64,000 nt of DNA, from positions 62,001 to 126,000 of the forward strand of contig JARWZO010000030.1 of the NCBI GenBank assembly GCA_029866325.1, given 5' to 3'. Under the pieces are notes generated by a model that was given only the letters and a program-made list of their open reading frames with translations, did not search any database and was not told the DNA's origin. The stretch comes from Fluviicola sp. Its GTDB lineage: Bacteria; Bacteroidota; Bacteroidia; Flavobacteriales_D; Crocinitomicaceae. This document shows positions 1,479 through 12,646 of the stretch, piece after piece; positions within the stretch are counted from its first letter, which is position 1, and every line of letters begins with the position of its first letter. Both the position numbers and the translations under genes were made by a program.

Positions 1479-2459
1479 TCAGTTGTTTGGTTGAAGATGT
1501 TTGAATGCCGTTCCTGATTTCAGTTGTTCCAAAGAGGTGAAAAAAGCATCTGAATAAGAAATTGCAGGATCGAATGTTTGGATAGCCAAGGCGACGTTTC
1601 CGGCAACGACCGTGTTTTGTCCTTCGGTTCCTTTTCCTTGAAGAATTTGAACGAGCGTAGCTGCGGAGTCTTTGGCGGTGTTTCCTCCCTGAAGCGATGC
1701 AAGCGAAATGGCTGTTCCGATTGGACTTTTGTGCATCAACTCATCTCGTTCGCCACTCAAAATGCGGGTAGAACCGATAAACGTCAATTCATCAAATCCA
1801 TCCATTCCGTGAATAACTGTATATCCTTTTCTGTTTCTGTGAAGTACGTGTTGGTAATGTTTTGCAAGTTCTAGTGAATATGTTCCGGTCAACTGATGTG
1901 TTGGATTTGCCGGATTTACCAACGGACCGATTCCATTAAAAAAAGTTGGAACACCCAAGGCTTTGCGCAAAGGAGCAACGCGTTTTAACGTGGGGTGAAA
2001 CAAGGGCGCGTGCAGGAAACAAATGTTGTGTTTGTCTAATTGCCGTTGCAATTGTTGTTCATTGTTTGTGAATTGATATCCCAAAGCTTCGAGAACAGTA
2101 GAAGAACCGCAGAGCGAACTCACGCCGTAATTGCCGTGTTTTACCACTTTGTAGCCGAGACTTGCCAGTACAAAGGCGCTGGTAGTGGAAACATTAAAGG
2201 TGTTTTTTCCATCACCACCAGTTCCGCACACATCAATGGTATTGTCGGCTTCGAGTTTTACAGGAAGTGCTAGTTCGAGCAGCGCTTTGCGAAATCCGAT
2301 GAGTTCGCTGAGCTGTAAACCGCGGTATTGAAGGGCAATCATCAGTGCCACAATTTGTTCATCCGTTGTTTCGCGATGGTTGAGTTGAAGCATCGTTTCA
2401 TAAGCTTCTTCTTCCGATAGAAATGCGCCAGAAAGCAGTGTTGTGATTCTTTTTTTCAT
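1479..2459 (-). CDS. trpD: Anthranilate phosphoribosyltransferase
   Basis: 326 residues, normal length. It transfers phosphoribosyl from PRPP to anthranilate, the second dedicated step of Trp synthesis. The PRPP-binding glycine-rich motif CGTGGDG is at residues 78-84, followed by NVST and the KHGN anthranilate-binding motif at 107-110. FFNGIGPLVNP near residue 170 is the conserved hinge region. It is not fused to TrpG. It overlaps trpG by 4 bp upstream and leaves 4 bp before trpC, so it sits in the middle of a compact operon. Confidence 0.96.
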   Translation of the reverse strand: MKKRITTLLSGAFLSEEEAYETMLQLNHRETTDEQIVALMIALQYRGLQLSELIGFRKALLELALPVKLEADNTIDVCGTGGDGKNTFNVSTTSAFVLASLGYKVVKHGNYGVSSLCGSSTVLEALGYQFTNNEQQLQRQLDKHNICFLHAPLFHPTLKRVAPLRKALGVPTFFNGIGPLVNPANPTHQLTGTYSLELAKHYQHVLHRNRKGYTVIHGMDGFDELTFIGSTRILSGERDELMHKSPIGTAISLASLQGGNTAKDSAATLVQILQGKGTEGQNTVVAGNVALAIQTFDPAISYSDAFFTSLEQLKSGTAFKHLQPNN

Positions 2460-3025
2460 CGTAATGTGTTAATCCAGTTTGTAATCATTGTTCTTCCTGT
2501 GGGCGTGAGGATGGATTCAGGGTGAAATTGAATTCCGACCGTGGGGTGTGAAACATGCCGAAGTGCCATGATTGTTTGATCGGCCGCTCTGGCTGTGACA
2601 GTTAATTCGGCATTCCCCTCCAGATCGACTTGCCAACTGTGGTAACGACCCACATCTATCGTTTCGGGTAAACCGGCAAAAAGCGGTTCTTCCCGATCAA
2701 TGAAAATAGCGCTTGCTTTTCCGTGAATGGGAACCGGACATTGTTCCAGTTTCGCACCAAAGACTTCCGCAATGGCTTGATGTCCCAAGCAAACACCCAA
2801 GATTCCTTTCTTTCCGGAATACCGTTGAATGATTGGTTTTAATTCTCCTGCTTCGTCGGGTATTCCCGGTCCGGGAGAAAGGAGAATGGCGTCGCATTGA
2901 TCCAATAGATCATAATCAATGGCATTGTTGCGTTGCACAAATACAGTCATATTTTCGCATTCGCGTACGTAACGCACCAAGTTGTATACAAACGAGTCGA
3001 AATTATCAATCACAGCTATTTTCAT
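2456..3025 (-). CDS. trpG: Anthranilate synthase component II (glutamine amidotransferase)
   Basis: 189 residues, a class I glutamine amidotransferase that supplies ammonia to TrpE. The triad is visible: C79 in GVCLGHQ, H168 and E170 in QFHPES. PGPG at about residues 51-54 is the oxyanion-strand motif. It could also serve PabB for folate synthesis, as trpG/pabA proteins often do. No separate pabA is present in this window. It overlaps trpE and trpD by 4 bp each, which points to stoichiometric production with TrpE. Confidence 0.95.
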   Translation of the reverse strand: MKIAVIDNFDSFVYNLVRYVRECENMTVFVQRNNAIDYDLLDQCDAILLSPGPGIPDEAGELKPIIQRYSGKKGILGVCLGHQAIAEVFGAKLEQCPVPIHGKASAIFIDREEPLFAGLPETIDVGRYHSWQVDLEGNAELTVTARAADQTIMALRHVSHPTVGIQFHPESILTPTGRTMITNWINTLR

Positions 3026-4416
3026 GCGTTCTCCAATATGGGTGAATGTGCGGCTGTAATGGCTCTTCGCACGGCAGCCAGTTTGTTGTTGACTTCCTGT
3101 AGTTCGTTTTCAGGCACCGAATCCAACACAATTCCTGCTCCGGCTCTGAAATGCAATACGTTGTTCCGGCTCAGCATACTTCTGATCACAATGGCCAGAT
3201 TCACCGATCCGTCAATTTCCAAAAAGCCGATTGCTCCACCGTAATAGTCGCGGTTGTCACCTTCCAATTCCTGCAACAATTCCAATGCTTTTGGTTTAGG
3301 TGTTCCGGATAAAGTTCCCGCAGGAAAAGTTCCCGAAAAAAGCTGTAACGGATGGTGATCATCCAATGTGCCGATCACTTTTGAAACCAGGTGAATCACA
3401 TGGCTGAATTGTTGTACTTCTTTGTAAGCTTCAACTTCAACCTTGCTACAGTATTTACTCAGATCATTCCGCGCTAAATCAACGAGCATGGTGTGTTCGG
3501 CATTTTCTTTTTCGTCGTGAACCAATTGGTGAATTGCTGCCAGATCATGCGCTTCGTTTCCTGTTTTTCGTACCGTTCCGGCAATCGGGTGAATGGAAGC
3601 AATACCATGTTTCAATTGAATCTGTGTTTCGGGCGATGAACCCATCAAACGATACGACTCCATATCTGCATAAAACAAATACGGTGACGGATTCAAGCGA
3701 CGCAGCTGACGGTAGACTTCAAAATCATCTCCGAAAAACGGTTGAGAAAACGGACGTGAGACAACCAATTGAAAAACATCTCCGCGTAAAACATGGTATT
3801 TGGCACGATCAACCATCGCTAGAAATACTTGGTCTGAAGTCGTGGAAGTTGCTTCGTCGGTTACCGAAAATGGTAAAACTTCGGGAGCATTTTTTCGCAA
3901 TTGTAACTCCAATTGAATCAACGAAGGTTGTTCATCGGAAAACGAATTGGTGATGATATGACCCGCATCGTGAAAATGATCCAATACAATGAGGGTTTCG
4001 TAAAGTGTCAGATGCGCCAGCGGTAAATCATTTTCTCTGGCTAAACGCTCAATTCCACGTTCCTCAAAATGAGCAAATTCAAACCCGAAATACGAAAAGA
4101 ACCCGTTATGAGGAATCTCCGGTGATACAAAGCTGATAGACGCAATCAATTCTACCAATTGTTCGGTAACGGTTTGTGTGGTTGAAAACGGAATTGACCG
4201 TGTTTCTTTTGCGGTTTGAAACGTGATTTCAGCGTTTCCGACAATAATTTCTATCAGCGGATTTAAACCGATAAACGAATGACTATCAACCCTCGAATGG
4301 TAGTCATTACTTTCCAGTAATACCGGTTTCCGGTAGTGATTTCGAAGGTTTAAGTACATACCAACCGGTGTGTGCAGATCGGCATTGAAGGGATGAATGT
4401 GTGTGAAAACTTGCAT
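3022..4416 (-). CDS. trpE: Anthranilate synthase component I
   Basis: 464 residues. It converts chorismate to anthranilate using ammonia from TrpG, the committed step of Trp synthesis. The LLES motif at residues 33-36 is the tryptophan feedback site, so the enzyme should be inhibited by Trp. The C-terminal chorismate-binding domain shows DLARNDLSKYCS and GTLSGTPKPKA. This is the first structural gene of the operon. Its ATG is 20 bp past the T-run of the attenuator hairpin, and no clear Shine-Dalgarno is seen. Regulation is therefore expected at two levels, enzyme feedback and transcription attenuation. Confidence 0.96.
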   Translation of the reverse strand: MQVFTHIHPFNADLHTPVGMYLNLRNHYRKPVLLESNDYHSRVDSHSFIGLNPLIEIIVGNAEITFQTAKETRSIPFSTTQTVTEQLVELIASISFVSPEIPHNGFFSYFGFEFAHFEERGIERLARENDLPLAHLTLYETLIVLDHFHDAGHIITNSFSDEQPSLIQLELQLRKNAPEVLPFSVTDEATSTTSDQVFLAMVDRAKYHVLRGDVFQLVVSRPFSQPFFGDDFEVYRQLRRLNPSPYLFYADMESYRLMGSSPETQIQLKHGIASIHPIAGTVRKTGNEAHDLAAIHQLVHDEKENAEHTMLVDLARNDLSKYCSKVEVEAYKEVQQFSHVIHLVSKVIGTLDDHHPLQLFSGTFPAGTLSGTPKPKALELLQELEGDNRDYYGGAIGFLEIDGSVNLAIVIRSMLSRNNVLHFRAGAGIVLDSVPENELQEVNNKLAAVRRAITAAHSPILENA

Positions 4417-4436
4417 GTTGTAAAAAAGTTGAGAAC

Positions 4437-4467
4437 AAAAAAACGGCCTGTCAGTGATGACAAGCCG
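4437..4467 (-). terminator. trp operon attenuator terminator (3:4 hairpin)
   Basis: Read on the minus strand, CGGCTTGTCA (4467-4458) pairs with TGACAGGCCG (4453-4444) around a 4-nt loop. This gives 10 bp with one G-U pair, followed directly by seven T (4443-4437). It lies between the leader peptide stop and the trpE ATG, so it terminates the leader transcript before the operon. Confidence 0.9.
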
Positions 4468-4525
4468 CGCTTAATTATGGAGAAATACCAATGCGTCAAC
4501 GCCAGTCATCTGAAATAGAAGACTG
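4456..4525 (-). promoter_or_regulatory. trp attenuator: protector and antiterminator pairing
   Basis: Segment 1 CAGTCTTC (4525-4518) can pair with segment 2 GATGACTG (4510-4503), 7 of 8 positions. Segment 2 GATGACTGGC (4510-4501) can instead pair with segment 3 GCTTGTCATC (4465-4456), 9 of 10 positions counting one G-U. Segment 3 is also the left arm of the terminator. The tandem Trp codons end at 4526, one base before segment 1, so a ribosome stalled there masks segment 1 and frees 2:3. A ribosome at the leader stop (4498-4496) masks segment 2 and lets the terminator form. This is classical ribosome-mediated attenuation and resembles the published Bacteroid-trp RNA motif. The foldings were made by eye. 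Confidence 0.85.
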
Positions 4526-4558
4526 CCACCAGCATTGTGTATTGTTCATGCGAATCAT
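4496..4558 (-). CDS. trpL: trp operon leader peptide (Trp-rich, 20 codons)
   Basis: A 20-codon reading frame starting ATG ATT CGC and ending CGT TGA. It contains two adjacent TGG codons (residues 10-11) and a third TGG at residue 19, so 3 of 20 residues are tryptophan. A second in-frame ATG lies at 4549 and could be an alternative start. The frame is followed by a transcription terminator 29 bp downstream and then by trpE. The role is to sense charged tRNA-Trp by ribosome stalling; the peptide itself probably has no other function. The first ATG is only 4 nt past the promoter -7 box, so the leader mRNA is probably leaderless. Confidence 0.88.
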   Translation of the reverse strand: MIRMNNTQCWWQSSISDDWR

Positions 4559-4562
4559 GGTG

Positions 4563-4594
4563 CAAATGTAGAATGCAACTTTTGAATTCACAAA
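4563..4594 (-). promoter_or_regulatory. trp operon promoter
   Basis: On the minus strand, TTTG (4594-4591), a 20-nt spacer, then TACATTTG (4570-4563). This matches the Bacteroidota sigma-A consensus TTTG-N19-21-TAnnTTTG exactly. The expected transcription start is at or next to the leader-peptide ATG (4558). Confidence 0.85.
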
Positions 4595-4646
4595 CAAAAA
4601 GTGAAATAAATTTGCTTTAATCTGTATTTTGTTGATTTTATCACAT

Positions 4647-4654
4647 TATATTTG
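4647..4654 (+). promoter_or_regulatory. Promoter -7 box of the aromatic pathway operon
   Basis: TATATTTG matches TAnnTTTG and is 5 nt before the ATG of the second leader peptide, the same geometry as the divergent trp promoter. The -33 element is less clear: TTTG at 4628-4631 gives only a 15-nt spacer. Confidence 0.7.
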
Positions 4655-4659
4655 TCGTC

Positions 4660-4722
4660 ATGAACCTGTTTTTATCCATACAACACGTTGGTTTTTCGTG
4701 GTGGATCGCTTTCTTACGATAG
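4660..4722 (+). CDS. Leader peptide of the DAHP synthase operon (Trp-Trp, 20 codons)
   Basis: A 20-codon frame from ATG AAC CTG to CGA TAG with tandem TGG TGG codons at residues 15-16 (FSWW) and three Phe codons. It is followed by a hairpin plus seven T and then by the DAHP synthase/chorismate mutase gene. The placement of the Trp pair immediately before the protector segment indicates that the ribosome senses tRNA-Trp charging; the Phe codons are scattered and less well placed. It has the same length as the divergent trp leader, and both end in an arginine codon. No homologue was recognised; the call rests on architecture. Confidence 0.8.
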   Translation: MNLFLSIQHVGFSWWIAFLR

Positions 4723-4758
4723 CGAAACAGCAGGCATTTTGTAGTATTCCCGTTTCGT
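4706..4758 (+). promoter_or_regulatory. Aromatic operon attenuator: protector and antiterminator pairing
   Basis: Segment 1 TCGCT (4706-4710) pairs with segment 2 AGCGA (4721-4725). Segment 2 extended, GCGAAAC (4722-4728), pairs with GTTTCGT (4752-4758), 7 bp with one G-U pair, and that sequence is the left half of the terminator. The Trp-Trp codons (4699-4704) sit just before segment 1, and the stop codon (4720-4722) sits on segment 2. The logic is the same as at the trp operon. Confidence 0.78.
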
Positions 4759-4778
4759 TGACCGAGCGGGATTTTTTT
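4748..4778 (+). terminator. Attenuator terminator before DAHP synthase
   Basis: TCCCG (4748-4752) and TTCG (4754-4757) pair with CGAG (4763-4766) and CGGGA (4767-4771). This gives nine pairs with one bulged T and a 5-nt loop, followed by seven T (4772-4778). It lies 62 bp before the DAHP synthase ATG. Confidence 0.85.
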
Positions 4779-4840
4779 GTTTTTATTTGTTAACAGTTTG
4801 AGCACCCTGTTTTGGGTGAAAAAAGAGTAATCTTGTATTT

Positions 4841-5926
4841 ATGAGCAGCTTGATTCAGAGAAGTGGAAAACGACCGTATTTAATAGCCGGGCCATGTAGC
4901 GCCGAAACCGAAGAGCAAGTGATGGAAACAGTGATGCAATTGCAGCAATTTTGTTCCATCGATCTGTTGCGCGCCGGTATTTGGAAACCGCGAACACGCC
5001 CTGATTCGTTTGAAGGCGTAGGAGAAATAGGCTTGGAATGGCTGGTAAATGCCGGAAAACAAATCGGTGTGCCTACCACAACAGAAGTTGCCAATGCGCG
5101 TCATGCCGAATTGGCCCTGAAAGCTGGTGTCGACACGCTGTGGATTGGTGCTCGTACTACCGTGAATCCGTTTGCTGTGCAAGAAATCGCTGATGTGCTG
5201 GAAGGTACAAACATTCCTGTGCTGGTGAAGAATCCTGTAAATCCTGATCTGGAATTGTGGATTGGTGCTTTTGAACGCCTTGAGAAAGCAGGAATTACTG
5301 ATCTCACGGCCATTCATCGTGGTTTTTCGGTATACAAACACCCTAAATACCGCAATGTGCCTAGCTGGGAATTGCCCTTGGCATTGCGCGATCGATTGCC
5401 GCATATTCCACTGATTTGCGATCCGAGTCATATTTCAGGTAAACGTTCGTTGTTGCTTGAAGTTTCACAAAAAGCGATGGATTTGAATTTCGATGGTTTG
5501 ATGATCGAATCGCACCGAAACCCCGATGAAGCTTGGTCAGATGCAGCACAACAATTGACTCCGGCCAACCTGAGTATTCTGATCAATGAACTTGTTCTCC
5601 GTTCGCGGGAAGTGAGTGATAATGCATTGGAAGGCTTAGAAGAGCTCCGCGAAAAAATCGGTGTGCTGGATGATCGTTTGTTCGAGATTCTGACCGCACG
5701 TATGCGTTTGAGTGAAGATGTCGGCGCCTTTAAACAAGAACACAATATTACCATTCTTCAGGAAGAACACTGGCGAAAAATGATTGCCGGACGATTAGAA
5801 AAGGCGGCAGAATACGGATTGGCTGAGCGTTTTGTGAGTTTGGTGATGAATGCACTTCATCAGGAGTCGATTCGTCACCAAACGCGTATTATGAATCCGA
5901 ACGTACACCGCAATGAGCATGATTAA
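4841..5926 (+). CDS. Bifunctional DAHP synthase / chorismate mutase (type II)
   Basis: 361 residues with two domains. Residues 1-260 are a KDO8P-type (short) DAHP synthase: AGPCSAE at 16-22, GIWKPRTRPDSFEG at 46-59, KNPVNPD at 130-136, HRGFS at 159-163 and CDPSHISG at 193-200. Residues 265-350 are an AroQ-type chorismate mutase with the R-x-K-I-x-x-L-D-x-x-L spacing. It catalyses PEP plus erythrose-4-phosphate to DAHP, and chorismate to prephenate. The fusion is typical of Bacteroidota and often gives allosteric control by prephenate. It is the first gene after the Trp attenuator and overlaps aroA by 14 bp. Confidence 0.94.
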   Translation: MSSLIQRSGKRPYLIAGPCSAETEEQVMETVMQLQQFCSIDLLRAGIWKPRTRPDSFEGVGEIGLEWLVNAGKQIGVPTTTEVANARHAELALKAGVDTLWIGARTTVNPFAVQEIADVLEGTNIPVLVKNPVNPDLELWIGAFERLEKAGITDLTAIHRGFSVYKHPKYRNVPSWELPLALRDRLPHIPLICDPSHISGKRSLLLEVSQKAMDLNFDGLMIESHRNPDEAWSDAAQQLTPANLSILINELVLRSREVSDNALEGLEELREKIGVLDDRLFEILTARMRLSEDVGAFKQEHNITILQEEHWRKMIAGRLEKAAEYGLAERFVSLVMNALHQESIRHQTRIMNPNVHRNEHD

Positions 5927-7184
5927 ACAAGTAAAACCAGGACTTCGGGGTGGAGTAGTGGCTATTCCGGCCTCGAAAAGTGACGCACAGCGCGCCTATT
6001 TGGCGGCAGCATTGGCTCCAGGGAAATCTACCATTACAGGTTGGGGAAGCAGTAATGATGAACACGCAATGCTAACGGCAATTATTCAGCTGGGAGCTAC
6101 TGTTTCAATCGAAGAGGATGAATTGATCATTGAAGGAATTCCTCATTTTCCGGAGATGGCGGTGATTTCTGCAGGAGAATCCGGTTTGGGAATTCGTTTG
6201 CTTTCAATGGTTTGTGCGGCCCATAAAGGTGTCTTTTCCGTAACAGGTAAAGGTTCACTTGCCGACCGACCGATGGCTTTTGTGGAAACACATTTACCGC
6301 TTTTTGGAGCCAAATGCCAAACGACAAATGGAAAAGTGCCACTTGAAATTCACGGTCCAATGTATGGAGCAACTGCCAGAGTGGATGGTTCGTTGAGCTC
6401 GCAATTTATTTCCGGATTACTGATGGCCTTGCCTTTGGTAGATGGAAACAGTGAGTTGCAAGTGAAACAACTGATCAGCAAACCTTACATCGACATGACT
6501 TTGCAAACCTTGGAAGCTTTTGGTATTGTGGTACGCACGAAACCACCGTCAACGTACATCATTCCGGGTGAACAAATGTATCATGCAACGCATTATCAAA
6601 TTGATGCTGATTGGAGTTCGGCTAGTTATTGGTTGGTTGCCGCTGCAATTGGTCATCCTGTCGCGTTGCGCGGCTTGCGTCTGGATAGTTTTCAAGCAGA
6701 TAAGGCATTGATGAGTTTCTTGCAAGCTGCCAACTGCCAGGTTATCTTTAAGGAAGACACTATTAGCGTCGACGGATCTTCTCGCAAAGCATTCCAAGTA
6801 GATGCTACCGATTGTCCGGATCTCTTTCCTGCTTTGGTGACATTGGCGGCCTCTTGCGAGGGGACATCGGTTATTTCCGGAGCATCACGTTTAACTTACA
6901 AAGAAAGCCATCGCGGACTCACATTACAATCTGAGTTTGGTAAATTGGGCGTAAAGATCGATTTGATCGAAGACGACATGCACATTCACGGAACGGGAAT
7001 CATCAACGGAGCTTTGGTCGATTCGCACAACGATCACCGCATTGCGATGTGTTTGGCTATCGCTGCAACACTTGCTAATGAAGTAGTTGAAATTCAGGGA
7101 GCCGAATCGGTTGCTAAAAGTTATCCTGATTTTTGGCGCGATTTGGAAGCGTTGGAATTTGTTTCGGAGAATCTGCAAAACTAG
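5913..7184 (+). CDS. aroA: 3-phosphoshikimate 1-carboxyvinyltransferase (EPSP synthase)
   Basis: 423 residues, two inverse beta/alpha domains. It joins shikimate-3-phosphate with PEP, the sixth shikimate-pathway step. Visible motifs are ASKSDAQR (20-27), DGSLSSQFISG (158-168), DCPDLFPALV (300-309) and NDHRIAM (373-379). Two usual signatures are altered: the PEP loop reads ESGLGIRLL (89-97) instead of a GNAGTxxR-like sequence, and the KESDR motif reads KESHR (330-334). A second ATG two codons in (5919) is an alternative start. It overlaps the DAHP synthase gene by 14 bp, so both share the attenuated transcript. Downstream, two short inverted repeats (7205-7228 and 7233-7250) lack a T-run. Confidence 0.9.
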   Translation: MSMIKQVKPGLRGGVVAIPASKSDAQRAYLAAALAPGKSTITGWGSSNDEHAMLTAIIQLGATVSIEEDELIIEGIPHFPEMAVISAGESGLGIRLLSMVCAAHKGVFSVTGKGSLADRPMAFVETHLPLFGAKCQTTNGKVPLEIHGPMYGATARVDGSLSSQFISGLLMALPLVDGNSELQVKQLISKPYIDMTLQTLEAFGIVVRTKPPSTYIIPGEQMYHATHYQIDADWSSASYWLVAAAIGHPVALRGLRLDSFQADKALMSFLQAANCQVIFKEDTISVDGSSRKAFQVDATDCPDLFPALVTLAASCEGTSVISGASRLTYKESHRGLTLQSEFGKLGVKIDLIEDDMHIHGTGIINGALVDSHNDHRIAMCLAIAATLANEVVEIQGAESVAKSYPDFWRDLEALEFVSENLQN

Positions 7185-8542: not shown

Positions 8543-8595
8543 CGCGGGACGCATCCCGCGCCTACATAAACAACTATGATGCGTCCCGTGCCTAC
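8543..8595. repeat. GC-rich palindromic repeat between convergent genes
   Basis: The sequence CGCGGGACGCATC (8543-8555) is the inverted complement of GATGCGTCCCGTG (8578-8590), 13 positions with one G-T. Inside it, CGCGGGA/TCCCGCG (8543-8549/8554-8560) forms a second 7-bp hairpin. The block GCATCCCGCGCCTAC (8551-8565) is also repeated directly as GCGTCCCGTGCCTAC (8581-8595). It fills the gap between two convergent genes and supplies the TAG stop (8592-8594) of the minus-strand gene. There is no T-run, so a terminator role is only possible. It looks like a REP-type dispersed repeat. Confidence 0.6.
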
Positions 8596-10619
8596 TCCAA
8601 ATACAACACTCCTCCTTTGGAATAATCCACCGAATAATTAAACGAAAACTGTTTGGTTTCGCCCTTATTGATGGTGTTTCTCCAGGTCAAAATCCCCGTT
8701 TTTTCATTCAATACGGCGCCCACATAATTTCCTTGTTTCACTTTAATGTCATCATTGATTGAAATCGGGAAATGATCTTTCATGATGAACGGAATGCTTG
8801 CTGCTCCATTGTTTCGAATGGTAAAATCCCATTGTACTTCGTACTTGGTACGGTTTCCAACTGCGCGTGTTTTGGTGTTTTCTTCACTTTGTTTGCGCTC
8901 AACTACCAGTTTACGGTCCTTGCCTAAGGAGAAACTCAAGGTGTCTTTGGTTGAATTGACATCCACATAACTTTTGCCGATGAAAGTACCGTCGAAGTAC
9001 AAATTCGATTCACCGTTGAGCAGGTTTAATTTTTCCCAACCCGAAATTTGAGCTACCAAATACACCGACGGATCCAATTTCGGAACAGCGTGATATTCAT
9101 ACACAGCAGGCATTTCGTAGGTTGAAATCGCTACACGGTGATCCGCATTGTCTGAAGGAATACTAAATGGCGTGTTGATCTGAAATTCCATGCGCAGGTC
9201 TTTTTCAACAGCTGTTGCGATGGATTGTTCGTAGTCTAAATCGGCTTTTGTATCGCCATTGGCATAGTAGTATTTTGCTTTTTCTTGATCTCGTCGTGAG
9301 CCTCTGGTTTGTATAGTGACCTCATCAATACTTTCTACTTCACGGTTTGCGCTCAAAACGATTTCTTGCTGCGTATTACCGACATAATCATATTCCAAGC
9401 CACTTCCGTTTCCTCTTCCGCCTCTTTCTCCACCTGAACCGCTAAATGGTGAGCTGATTCCTTCCATCGCAATGGTCTGCGGATACAGCATAATTTTCCG
9501 GAACGGACGATCGATGTAAACCGTTTCGCCGTTGTAACCCAGATAATTCACATTGTATGCGGTTTCTCCGCGTGGTACAACAAACGAGAATCGTCCGCTG
9601 GCATCGGTCGAAACACTGGTGTTTGGGTCGCTGTTCATCTGAATTTTAGCAAACGCCAACGGTTCGCCCGAAACGGCATCAATCACTTCGCCATAAACTG
9701 TTTCGCCCGAATAATTGTAGGTCATGGTAGGACGTGGAATAATCGGTCGGCGAGGAGCCGCAGTGTAATAATTCAGGTACCACGGATCGATGGTTGCTTC
9801 TTGTGTATTGTCATACGGATCGTTGGTGGAAAGAATCAATTGCACCTGATCCCAGTTTTCGCCGGTATTTTGCGTGACCAATCCTTTGGCTTCTAACAAA
9901 ACCGGAGCACCAACACCATTGCTGCGCATATCGTAATACGGTTTCCAGGAAGCATTCGGGGTGATGTACGAAAATTCGAAATCGATTTTTCCTGCGGAAG
10001 ATACATCTAGTTCTACTTGAATCTCGGTGTAGTTTTTTACCGGTAAACTTCTGCGGGTATTGATCTCTTGTTCCAATTGATTGATCGCGCGAATGACTAC
10101 CTCAATCTCATCTTCCAGTTGCGATTTACGCAGTTGAATCTCGGTGAGTTTGGTATGAAAAAACGTCGATGCTTCTTTCAGTTCGGCAATTTTTACCGCA
10201 ACTTGCTGACTGCCCAAATCATTGTTTTTCAACAACAATTGTTCGTCGTAGAGTAAAACCGAATACTCATCACGTAGTTTTCTTTCTTCGGTTTCATAGG
10301 TTTTTCGTTTGGCATTCATCGCGTCAACATCTTGCTTGGCGATAGCCACTTCATCAAAATCTTTTCGGGTGCGCACACTCAAGATAGTCGCGTTAGAAGA
10401 CGATTTGAGTTGAATTGAATTCGGATCGACAAAATCGGTGAGTTTTTCAAACACCACTACTTGTTTACCGCCCGTTAAATCAACCGACTTGGTGTGTTTG
10501 ATTTGTGCACCGGAAGTAAATACCGTGACCTGACTGATAGGAGCACTGATTTTTTTATCGTCCTGAGCCATAGCTAGTAATGGCAAAAACGCAATTGTTA
10601 TAAGAAGGAACTTGAACAT
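8592..10619 (-). CDS. MuiA-like protein (DUF4140/DUF4139) with carboxypeptidase-regulatory-like insert, copy 1
   Basis: 675 residues with a signal peptide (after AMAQ). Residues 23-90 match the DUF4140 N-terminal domain, and residues 90-190 are a charged coiled-coil segment. The rest is the DUF4139 region with WKPYYDMRS and TQNTGENW. A CarboxypepD_reg-like beta domain is inserted at about 305-385 (GEVIDAVSGEPLAFAKI). A Gly/Arg-rich variable linker follows at about 390-460. The family is named after mucoidy inhibitor A, but its molecular function is unknown. It is a tandem paralogue of the next gene upstream, 23 bp away, and the two are probably co-transcribed. Confidence 0.85.
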   Translation of the reverse strand: MFKFLLITIAFLPLLAMAQDDKKISAPISQVTVFTSGAQIKHTKSVDLTGGKQVVVFEKLTDFVDPNSIQLKSSSNATILSVRTRKDFDEVAIAKQDVDAMNAKRKTYETEERKLRDEYSVLLYDEQLLLKNNDLGSQQVAVKIAELKEASTFFHTKLTEIQLRKSQLEDEIEVVIRAINQLEQEINTRRSLPVKNYTEIQVELDVSSAGKIDFEFSYITPNASWKPYYDMRSNGVGAPVLLEAKGLVTQNTGENWDQVQLILSTNDPYDNTQEATIDPWYLNYYTAAPRRPIIPRPTMTYNYSGETVYGEVIDAVSGEPLAFAKIQMNSDPNTSVSTDASGRFSFVVPRGETAYNVNYLGYNGETVYIDRPFRKIMLYPQTIAMEGISSPFSGSGGERGGRGNGSGLEYDYVGNTQQEIVLSANREVESIDEVTIQTRGSRRDQEKAKYYYANGDTKADLDYEQSIATAVEKDLRMEFQINTPFSIPSDNADHRVAISTYEMPAVYEYHAVPKLDPSVYLVAQISGWEKLNLLNGESNLYFDGTFIGKSYVDVNSTKDTLSFSLGKDRKLVVERKQSEENTKTRAVGNRTKYEVQWDFTIRNNGAASIPFIMKDHFPISINDDIKVKQGNYVGAVLNEKTGILTWRNTINKGETKQFSFNYSVDYSKGGVLYLE

Positions 10620-10642
10620 AATTTTGTGTTTTTAGCGAACGA

Positions 10643-12646
10643 TTATTCTAAATAAATGGGTTGTCCGTTGGAATAATCCACCGAATAATTGAAGAAGAAG
10701 AGTTTAACCTCGCCTTTGTTGATGTTCATTTTCCAGGTTAGAATTCCTGTTTTCTCATCCAACAGCGCATTTGAAAACTCGCCTTGTTTCACTTTGATAT
10801 CGTCATTCACCGAAATCGGGAAGTGATCTTTTAAGATAAACGGAATGCTTGCTCCGCCATTGTTCCGTACCGTGAAATCCCATTGCACTTCGTATTTGTT
10901 TCTGCTTCCGATGGCGCGCGTTTTGCTTTTTTCTTCGCTGCGTTTGCGTTCTACCACCAGTTTTTTGTCTTTTCCTAACGAGAAACTCAAGGTGTCTTTC
11001 GCCGAATTGACATTCACATAACTTTTACCGATAAAGGTTCCATCGAAATACAAATTCGATTCACCGTTGAGTAGGTTCAATTTTTCCCAACCCGAAATCT
11101 GAGCCACCAAATACACCGAAGGATCGAGTTTCGGAACCGTATGATACTCGTAATTGGCTTTCATTTCGTAAGTTGAAATAGCCACACGGTGGTCTGCATT
11201 ATCCGATGGAATACTAAATGGTGTGTTGATTTGGAATTCCATGCGCAAATCTTTTTCTACAGTGGTTGCTACAGGTGTTGAATAGAATGTTTGACTGATT
11301 TCTTCTCCGGAAACTTCATATCCCGGACTATAGCCTCTATTACTCCGTTTTTTACGACCACCGAAGATTCCTTGTGATCTGCTATTATCCATGTCCATCA
11401 TCTTCATTGGTGAATTTCGGATCTCTTCAACGGAATAATTGCTCATGTAACTACCGCTTTCTGATACGCTATTACTGATATAAATATCTTCCATTGCAAT
11501 GGCTTGCGGGTAAAGCATGATTTTGGTAAACGGCGATTTGATCGGTATGTATTGATTATCGTAGCCTAAGTATGAAACCGTAAAGGCTGTCTCATCGCGC
11601 GGAACGACAAACGAGAATCGTCCGTTGATATCGGTTGAAACTACGGTATTGGCATTGTTGGCCATTTGTAGTTTGGCGAAGGAAAGCGGTTCACCGGTTG
11701 TCGCATCCATCACTTCTCCGAAAACCGTTTCTCCTGAAAAATTATAGACTGGTGCGCTGCGCGCGGCGATTGGTTTGCGAGGTGCGGGAGTGTAGTAGTT
11801 GAGGTACCACGGATCGATGGTGGTTTCAATCGTGTTGTCGTAAGGATCGTTGGTGGAAAGTACCAAGTTGACGTTTTTCCAGTCTTCGCCAGTATTTTGG
11901 GTGACCAATCCTTTGGCTTCCAATAAAACCGGAGCTCCAACGCCATTACTTCGCATGTCGTAATACGGTTTCCAAGAGGCATTCGGCGTGATGTATGAAA
12001 ACACAAATTGTATAGAACCGGCTTTCTCAACATCCAATTCCACTTCGATTTCGGTGTAGTTTTTCACCGGAAGTCCGCGTCTGGTATTGATTTCTTGTTC
12101 AATCTGATTGATCTTGCGAATCACCACTTCAATCTCATCTTCCAATTGCGATTTACGGAATTGAATCTCCGTCATTTTTGAATGATAAAACGTCGATGCT
12201 TCTTTTAACTCAGCCATTTTTACCGGTTGCTGCTGACTTCCCAAATCATTGTTTTTGAGGAGTAATTGTTCGTCGTATAATAAAACGGTGTATTCGTCGC
12301 GCAGCTTGCGTTCTTCACTATCCAGTTTTTTGCGTTTACCATTCAATTCGTCTACGTCTTTTTTGGCAATAGCAACTTCGTCGAAATTCTTACGTGTACG
12401 AACACTCAAAATAGTGGCGCTTTCAGACGATTTGAGTTGAATGGAGTTGGGGTCGACAAAATCGGTCAATTTTTCAAACACCACCACTTGTTTTCCGCTA
12501 GAAAGTGTGACTTGTTTGGTGTGTTCTACCTGTGCGCCCGATGTGAAAACCGTTACTTTTTGAATGGGAGCATTGATTTTTTCTTCTTTTTGGCTCCATC
12601 CGCCAAACGGGATGACCAGTAGCAGCAAATACTTCAATCGTTTCAT
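10643..12646 (-). CDS. MuiA-like protein (DUF4140/DUF4139) with carboxypeptidase-regulatory-like insert, copy 2
   Basis: 667 residues with the same architecture as its downstream paralogue: signal peptide, DUF4140, coiled coil, inserted beta domain, variable linker and DUF4139 C-terminal half. The first 300 and last 190 residues of the two proteins are nearly the same. The linker (about 395-455) is unrelated, here Ser/Met-rich with a basic GGRKKRSNRGY patch. No promoter of its own is seen: the 79 bp upstream hold the terminator of the PD40 gene, so expression may depend on read-through or on a weak promoter I cannot see. Function unknown; probably an outer-surface or periplasmic structural protein. 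Confidence 0.85.
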   Translation of the reverse strand: MKRLKYLLLLVIPFGGWSQKEEKINAPIQKVTVFTSGAQVEHTKQVTLSSGKQVVVFEKLTDFVDPNSIQLKSSESATILSVRTRKNFDEVAIAKKDVDELNGKRKKLDSEERKLRDEYTVLLYDEQLLLKNNDLGSQQQPVKMAELKEASTFYHSKMTEIQFRKSQLEDEIEVVIRKINQIEQEINTRRGLPVKNYTEIEVELDVEKAGSIQFVFSYITPNASWKPYYDMRSNGVGAPVLLEAKGLVTQNTGEDWKNVNLVLSTNDPYDNTIETTIDPWYLNYYTPAPRKPIAARSAPVYNFSGETVFGEVMDATTGEPLSFAKLQMANNANTVVSTDINGRFSFVVPRDETAFTVSYLGYDNQYIPIKSPFTKIMLYPQAIAMEDIYISNSVSESGSYMSNYSVEEIRNSPMKMMDMDNSRSQGIFGGRKKRSNRGYSPGYEVSGEEISQTFYSTPVATTVEKDLRMEFQINTPFSIPSDNADHRVAISTYEMKANYEYHTVPKLDPSVYLVAQISGWEKLNLLNGESNLYFDGTFIGKSYVNVNSAKDTLSFSLGKDKKLVVERKRSEEKSKTRAIGSRNKYEVQWDFTVRNNGGASIPFILKDHFPISVNDDIKVKQGEFSNALLDEKTGILTWKMNINKGEVKLFFFNYSVDYSNGQPIYLE

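Follow-up and report, generated by a model that had tools for sequence, protein, structure and literature searches.

Two separate ribosome-mediated transcription attenuators very probably lie back to back in the Fluviicola sp. DNA analysed here, a stretch of 64 kb that is called the window below, and would open the Trp branch together with one set of DAHP synthase isozymes. In the proposed mechanism, each of two divergent promoters would give a transcript that starts almost at the ATG of a 20-residue leader peptide with adjacent Trp codons. With ample charged tRNA-Trp, the translating ribosome would reach the leader stop codon and cover segment 2, and the 3:4 terminator would form before both operons. 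When charged tRNA-Trp is scarce, the ribosome would stall on the Trp codons and cover segment 1, segments 2 and 3 would pair, and RNA polymerase would read on. In this way, one signal would open the Trp branch jointly with a single isozyme set of the common pathway.

A reading made from the sequence alone (the sequence-only reading) had described two divergent 20-codon frames that lie 101 bp apart and each have adjacent Trp codons, one leading to trpE and the other to a gene for DAHP synthase/chorismate mutase and aroA, and all of this is found as described, the gene assignment included; the 101 bp are the spacing of the two leader ATGs. The frame on the minus strand (MIRMNNTQCWWQSSISDDWR, 4558-4496, with a possible inner ATG at 4549) has its control codons, an adjacent Trp pair, at 4526..4531, and precedes trpE (3022..4416), the first gene of a trp operon that continues on the same strand with trpG (2456-3025), trpD (1479-2459, NCBIfam model above its cut-off), trpC (707-1474), and trpF (87-710). 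The frame on the plus strand (MNLFLSIQHVGFSWWIAFLR, 4660..4722) has its Trp pair at 4699..4704. It is followed on that strand by the gene for a bifunctional DAHP synthase/chorismate mutase (DAHP-CM; 4841..5926, PF00793 and PF01817), the DAHP part of which stays below the cut-offs of the NCBIfam models, and by an overlapping aroA gene for EPSP synthase (5913..7184, TIGR01356 above cut-off). When both strands of the 64-kb window were scanned for a short frame with W.?W that ends 60 nt or less before a terminator, exactly these two sites were matched, among 73 terminator-like sites. Applied to other Bacteroidota loci, 900,610 bases in all, the same rule gave 86 matches, and 8 of the 86, from the list read by eye, lie away from a trp leader, which corresponds to about 0.6 stray match per 64 kb. 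A plain DNA search of the window's own genome with the leader region returned the self-match only.

Promoter-like elements are seen close to both frames. TACATTTG (4563..4570, minus strand) lies 4 nt before the ATG of the trpE leader and TATATTTG (4647..4654, plus strand) 5 nt before that of the DAHP-side leader, and both are putative -7 elements of the Bacteroidota type, the consensus of which we take to be TAnnTTTG. Of 35 DAHP-side leaders, 15 have an exact TAnnTTTG within 45 nt upstream, at a median distance of 5 nt; of 25 trpE leaders, 8 do, at a median of 4 nt. This position suggests that both leader mRNAs would be nearly leaderless, with the ATG close to the 5′ end of the transcript. Leaderless mRNAs make up 5.5% of the mapped mRNAs in Flavobacterium psychrophilum, according to the available part of the report (PMC9723704).

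Each leader is followed by a hairpin and then by seven T, as had been claimed for both strands. The 3:4 terminator hairpin of the trpE side occupies 4468-4443 on the minus strand (11 pairs, with the seven T at 4443-4437), and that of the DAHP side 4748..4771 on the plus strand (8 pairs, with the seven T at 4772-4778); a simple scanner finds 2 terminators in 4300-4900, against a mean of 0.3 in shuffled sequences. Upstream of them, segments 1 and 2 can form a pause hairpin on the trpE side (4498..4530, minus strand; 4530-4517 with 4511-4498) and a hairpin on the DAHP side (4706..4725, plus strand; 4706-4713 with 4718-4725). The predicted 2:3 antiterminators span 4456..4510 on the trpE side (minus strand; 4510-4498 with 4471-4456, 12 pairs in two runs of 6) and 4720..4760 on the DAHP side (plus strand; 4720-4730 with 4750-4760, 10 pairs). 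Both sides have the control-codon frame and the terminator of a candidate leader-peptide attenuator, and the trpE side has, in addition, a predicted mutually exclusive antiterminator that is placed to fit the ribosome positions.

Folding shows how these segments could compete. If no ribosome is present, the fold on both sides is the 1:2 hairpin. When a stall was imitated, by blocking the bases as far as a ribosome placed at the Trp codons and ending the transcript before segment 4, the antiterminator was the best structure on both strands, and with the ribosome at the leader stop codon its pairing was impossible on both strands, which bears out the earlier claim that the competing antiterminators fit the ribosome positions. 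Once the complete hairpin is transcribed, the terminator is preferred at equilibrium in every case, that of a stalled ribosome included, and therefore the decision of the switch would have to be kinetic. RNA folding, which the sequence-only reading had proposed for both leaders, spoke clearly for the minus leader, which is much more stable than its shuffles (z -3.57), whereas the stability of the plus leader is modest (z -1.23, with 24 of 200 shuffles equally good). The antiterminator duplex of the trpE side has a z of -2.70 in the window genome (locus L032), and that of the DAHP side a z of -0.79, which is not exceptional.

The trpE side is widely kept among relatives. TrpE matches (E<=1e-80) were obtained in 54 of 240 genomes of Crocinitomicaceae, the family to which Fluviicola belongs, and a W.?W leader with a terminator precedes trpE at 49 of the 51 Crocinitomicaceae loci with upstream sequence, a count from which the loci L049, L173, and L197, where trpE starts at the contig edge, were excluded. 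The same rule is passed at 67 of 80 Bacteroidota loci (the best 80 among the matches listed) and by 0 of 655 shuffles. Against shuffles, the trpE-side antiterminator duplexes have a mean z of -1.58 over 49 loci, the rows of which are related, and in most rows of both the trpE and the DAHP side, segment 2 is close to the stop codon of the leader.

The nearest described RNA is the Bacteroid-trp leader, RF01692 (Weinberg et al., 2010; PMC2864571). In the available part of its description, it resembles the trpE side in that a UGG UGG (UGG) leader stands before Bacteroidota trp genes and that its GGCUUGUC end stem is like the trpE-side terminator, and differs in that DAHP synthase is absent from that part (PMC2864571). 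The covariance-model search that had been suggested to connect the two failed for the window, which is matched by RF01692 on neither side, at the gathering score (49 bits) or at E<=10. Trp_leader (RF00513, gathering score 41 bits) gave 15.6 bits for the plus leader and no match for the minus leader, and Rfam was rejected as direct proof for the window, as no match stood above threshold. RF01692 matches 5 of the 15 relatives tried, and its threshold is exceeded by just 0.9 bit in the Crocinitomicaceae relative L038. A model built from 27 Crocinitomicaceae trpE leaders (R1, alignment A4), the window and L038 included, finds the RF01692 site at the same place in all four independent RF01692-positive loci (L083, L127, L129, and L159), which are absent from the R1 alignment. 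R1 is not fully specific, as some DAHP-side leaders were also matched (L021, E 5.5e-5; L208, E 0.008). This indirect evidence points to the trpE side as a diverged relative of Bacteroid-trp, linked to it via intermediates although the window itself fails the Rfam model; the part of the earlier claim that concerned Bacteroid-trp is thus kept for the trpE side through R1, whereas the window has no RF01692 match and the DAHP side is unlinked.

Some trpE loci of other genomes differ in arrangement. Two successive Trp-rich leaders, possibly tandem attenuators, are found upstream of trpE in L198 and L199 (genomes G062 and G059). An extra short frame with a terminator lies upstream of the usual WWW leader at L093:5612-5704, L125:5680-5751, and L115:5586-5681; the peptides of these frames are alike (INTIWLPWWGLL, and KSIWLWWG in L115), and such a conserved peptide may hint at another mode of sensing. 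In a Bacteroidetes record (L084:1-1602), DAHP-CM and trpE share a strand, DAHP-CM being the upstream gene, and a WWW leader lies in between; a record of an uncultured Flavobacteriia bacterium (L082) carries the same leader pair as the Crocinitomicaceae genome G115.

For the DAHP side, up to 420 nt upstream of DAHP-CM were surveyed in 95 Crocinitomicaceae genomes under a fixed rule, that is, a Trp or Trp-plus-aromatic leader with a terminator. Such a leader is present in 34 of the 41 genomes with a divergent trpE adjoining, in 4 of 11 with trpE elsewhere (leaving 7 trpE-positive, unlinked genomes in which no DAHP-side leader is found by the rule), and in 2 of 43 where trpE was not detected; among shuffles, 6 of 950 satisfy the rule. 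An initial, stricter form of it yielded 26/41, 4/11, and 2/43, respectively, with 5 of 3800 shuffles. The partial loci L217 (G136) and L246 (G097) and the duplicate loci L204 and L210-L214 were excluded, and the survey does not contain the Crocinitomicaceae genomes G033 and G034. Among the 11 unlinked genomes, G133 is represented by a gene of the second-copy type (L216), and G071 was placed there solely because its DAHP-CM lies 551 bases from the contig end. The two trpE-less positives are doubtful: G075 has the start of trpE beside DAHP-CM on the locus, and G101 is a genome of 84% completeness. As for the seven linked misses, a leader is visible in three (G151, G165, and G170) and is matched by R2, a model of the DAHP-side leaders that is unspecific, and none was seen on inspection in the other four (G004, G020, G143, and G135). 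R2 was in fact rejected as a specific probe; it also matches trpE leaders and the hisG leader of the window's own genome (E 3.7e-4), and cross-matches of R1 and R2 are therefore uninformative on a common origin of the two attenuators. Extra DNA lies before DAHP-CM in L184 (G146) and L187 (G172), yet both retain the leader and the terminator of the DAHP side.

A tree of DAHP-CM proteins, made by a quick method with a single-matrix model, gives 17 independent pairs with a difference in trpE; the leader follows trpE in 10 of them on average (9-11) and never goes the opposite way (sign test, median p 0.002). In G024, G063, and G064, a Trp leader stands before DAHP-CM although trpE is on another contig and both genes lie well inside their contigs; the leader therefore does not merely come with the shared intergenic region. 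Within the trpE-positive genomes, just 4 independent pairs on the tree bear on whether the leader is due to linkage. Taken as a comparison of sequences, the survey and the tree support the view that the candidate DAHP-side attenuator tracks the presence of trpE.

The structures of the DAHP side were followed in an alignment (A3) of 22 leaders out of the 40 called on this side, those of the CCCG/TCC-stem types. Its terminator stem is paired in 98.6% of cells, against 72.6% in shuffles and 54.1% at most in slid stems, and it shows both-side changes at 9 of 10 pairs and a covariation of 0.757 against 0.250 in shuffles; the stem thus appears to be under selection. The antiterminator is paired in 75.6% of cells against 71.0% in shuffles, with 4 double-changed pairs against 3.9 expected, so that its covariation is weak. 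It beats its slid versions (50.3% at most), and its register varies among genera. Over 40 genomes, the DAHP-side antiterminator duplexes have a mean z of -0.93 against shuffles (p 4e-7), the rows being related. Comparison with relatives, to which the sequence-only reading had looked for support, accordingly confirms the Trp codons and the terminator stems, and only faintly the antiterminator pairing. An aromatic leader was found before none of 12 second-copy-type DAHP-CM genes in Crocinitomicaceae loci, and before DAHP-CM at none of 12 loci, a small sample, from 11 order-level genomes outside the family.

A skeptic might hold that only the trpE attenuator works and that the frame of the plus leader arose by chance or has decayed, with an ordinary terminator behind it, and is retained through its proximity. 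The unexceptional folding of the plus leader and the four linked genomes without it agree with this; however, the leader is called in 34 of 41 linked genomes against 6 of 950 shuffles, the DAHP-side terminator stem covaries, and the leader persists where trpE is elsewhere and vanishes along with trpE, and we consider such a reading quite improbable. It is also highly improbable that Trp is sensed otherwise, by a repressor or by a riboswitch or protein on the leader RNA, with the peptides being incidental or causing arrest by binding free Trp. Against arrest peptides, the leader sequences vary freely except for the control codons; the geometry of the segments suits ribosome stalling.

The leaders were compared in composition over 38 genomes with both of them in view; this table leaves out G070, G072, G073, G075, and G101, despite their DAHP-side leader. 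Trp codons number, on average, 1.9 per leader on the DAHP side and 4.1 on the trpE side. For Phe or Tyr within three residues of Trp the order is the reverse, with 50 of 240 DAHP-side sites against 20 of 407 in the trpE leaders (Fisher test over sites, p 8e-10; paired Wilcoxon test, 2e-5; seen in 8 of 10 genera), as in FFYWYG, TFYWFWFDF, and NFYWC of DAHP-side leaders. As Phe and Tyr codons beside Trp are commoner in the DAHP-side leaders, Trp may not be the sole signal there, and Phe and Tyr may also be heard; the earlier claim of control by tRNA-Trp charging thus stands as to the Trp codons on both sides and is qualified by the adjacent Phe and Tyr codons of the DAHP side. In the fuller form of this alternative, the DAHP-side attenuator would read Phe, Tyr, and Trp, that is, a general aromatic shortage, and the trpE leader Trp alone, and the chorismate mutase domain of the enzyme, which serves Phe and Tyr, would fit with it, as would the place of the enzyme ahead of all three branches. 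On the other hand, the rows are related, Phe and Tyr codons are A+T-rich, and 2 of 10 genera lack the excess. The Phe-Tyr-Phe leader AroR of Corynebacterium glutamicum answers Phe and not Tyr, as far as the available part of PMC11802643 tells, and caution is therefore needed in reading codons as signals. The number of DAHP-CM copies, tried as an explanation of the leader composition, was dropped, as no clear tie or pattern appeared when compared by hand. We regard a reading of all three amino acids as a serious candidate that is somewhat less likely than not. With the same reserve, a two-tier node can tentatively be imagined, in which the trpE leader would respond to Trp alone and the DAHP-CM leader would integrate Trp, Phe, and Tyr, the second tier having arisen in Crocinitomicaceae and been lost whenever the Trp branch was lost.

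How much of the common pathway would be governed depends on the other copies in the genome. A second DAHP-CM gene, 47-48% identical, is flanked by genes for prephenate dehydratase and for another EPSP synthase (the set of three is at G000:C15:131539-134799, or L252:1040-4300), and no aromatic leader with a terminator was found upstream of it; a third DAHP synthase is on contig C11 (the matched stretch only). With a second DAHP-CM/aroA set that has no attenuator and a third DAHP synthase, Trp would therefore govern one isozyme set. The proposal that Trp controls both tiers keeps its footing in the two conserved leaders, and its phrase "common aromatic entry" is too wide.

The original work on aroR is reportedly that of Neshat et al. 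in 2014. C. glutamicum resembles the present case in having leader-peptide attenuators with trpL (WWW, before trpE) and with aroR (Phe-Tyr-Phe, before the DAHP synthase gene aroF) in one genome; its DAHP leader has no Trp and answers Phe, whereas that of Fluviicola has Trp codons and is divergent to trpE, and the available parts of the reports describe no back-to-back arrangement (PMC11802643; PMC4046766). In E. coli, the trp leader (RF00513) belongs to the same class of mechanism for trp, the Fluviicola leaders not being RF00513 members, and one DAHP synthase isozyme, aroH, is likewise under Trp control but through the TrpR repressor and not a Trp leader, according to the accessible part of PMC11802643. 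An attenuator is also predicted in Bacteroides thetaiotaomicron before pheA>hisHb>aroAIb-aroQ>tyrA, which contains a DAHP synthase-chorismate mutase gene (PMC1173090, Table 7); this is a different operon, its Phe/Tyr context is judged from its genes, and the leader sequence is not given in the part of the source at hand (PMC1173090). Attenuation of DAHP synthase itself, as by AroR of C. glutamicum, and a trpE attenuator in kind are already known. The literature searched, the coverage of which is partial so that absence is unproven, showed neither a Trp leader ahead of a DAHP synthase gene nor a back-to-back pair of attenuators at trpE; within that coverage, this agrees with the earlier remark that no description of such a circuit had been met for this gene pair. 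The candidate attenuator before DAHP-CM and the back-to-back arrangement would thus be new, and both are well supported by comparison.

If the proposed mechanism is true, a family of Bacteroidota coordinates a branch with its supply line via tRNA-Trp charging, without a repressor. The genomes that lost trpE and the DAHP-side leader would form a natural series for a comparative test, and the mixed Phe/Tyr/Trp leaders an easy test case for one leader that reads several amino acids.

Another candidate attenuator of the same genome, which speaks in favor of the main reading, concerns histidine, where a His-rich leader (MKMTQLFHHHHHLHC) and a terminator precede hisG-hisD (G000:C11:120420-120538, L254; also L257 near 6093, minus strand). 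Elsewhere in the window, positions 8592-12646 hold two adjacent similar genes, which encode DUF4139/DUF4140 with an inserted carboxypeptidase regulatory-like domain.
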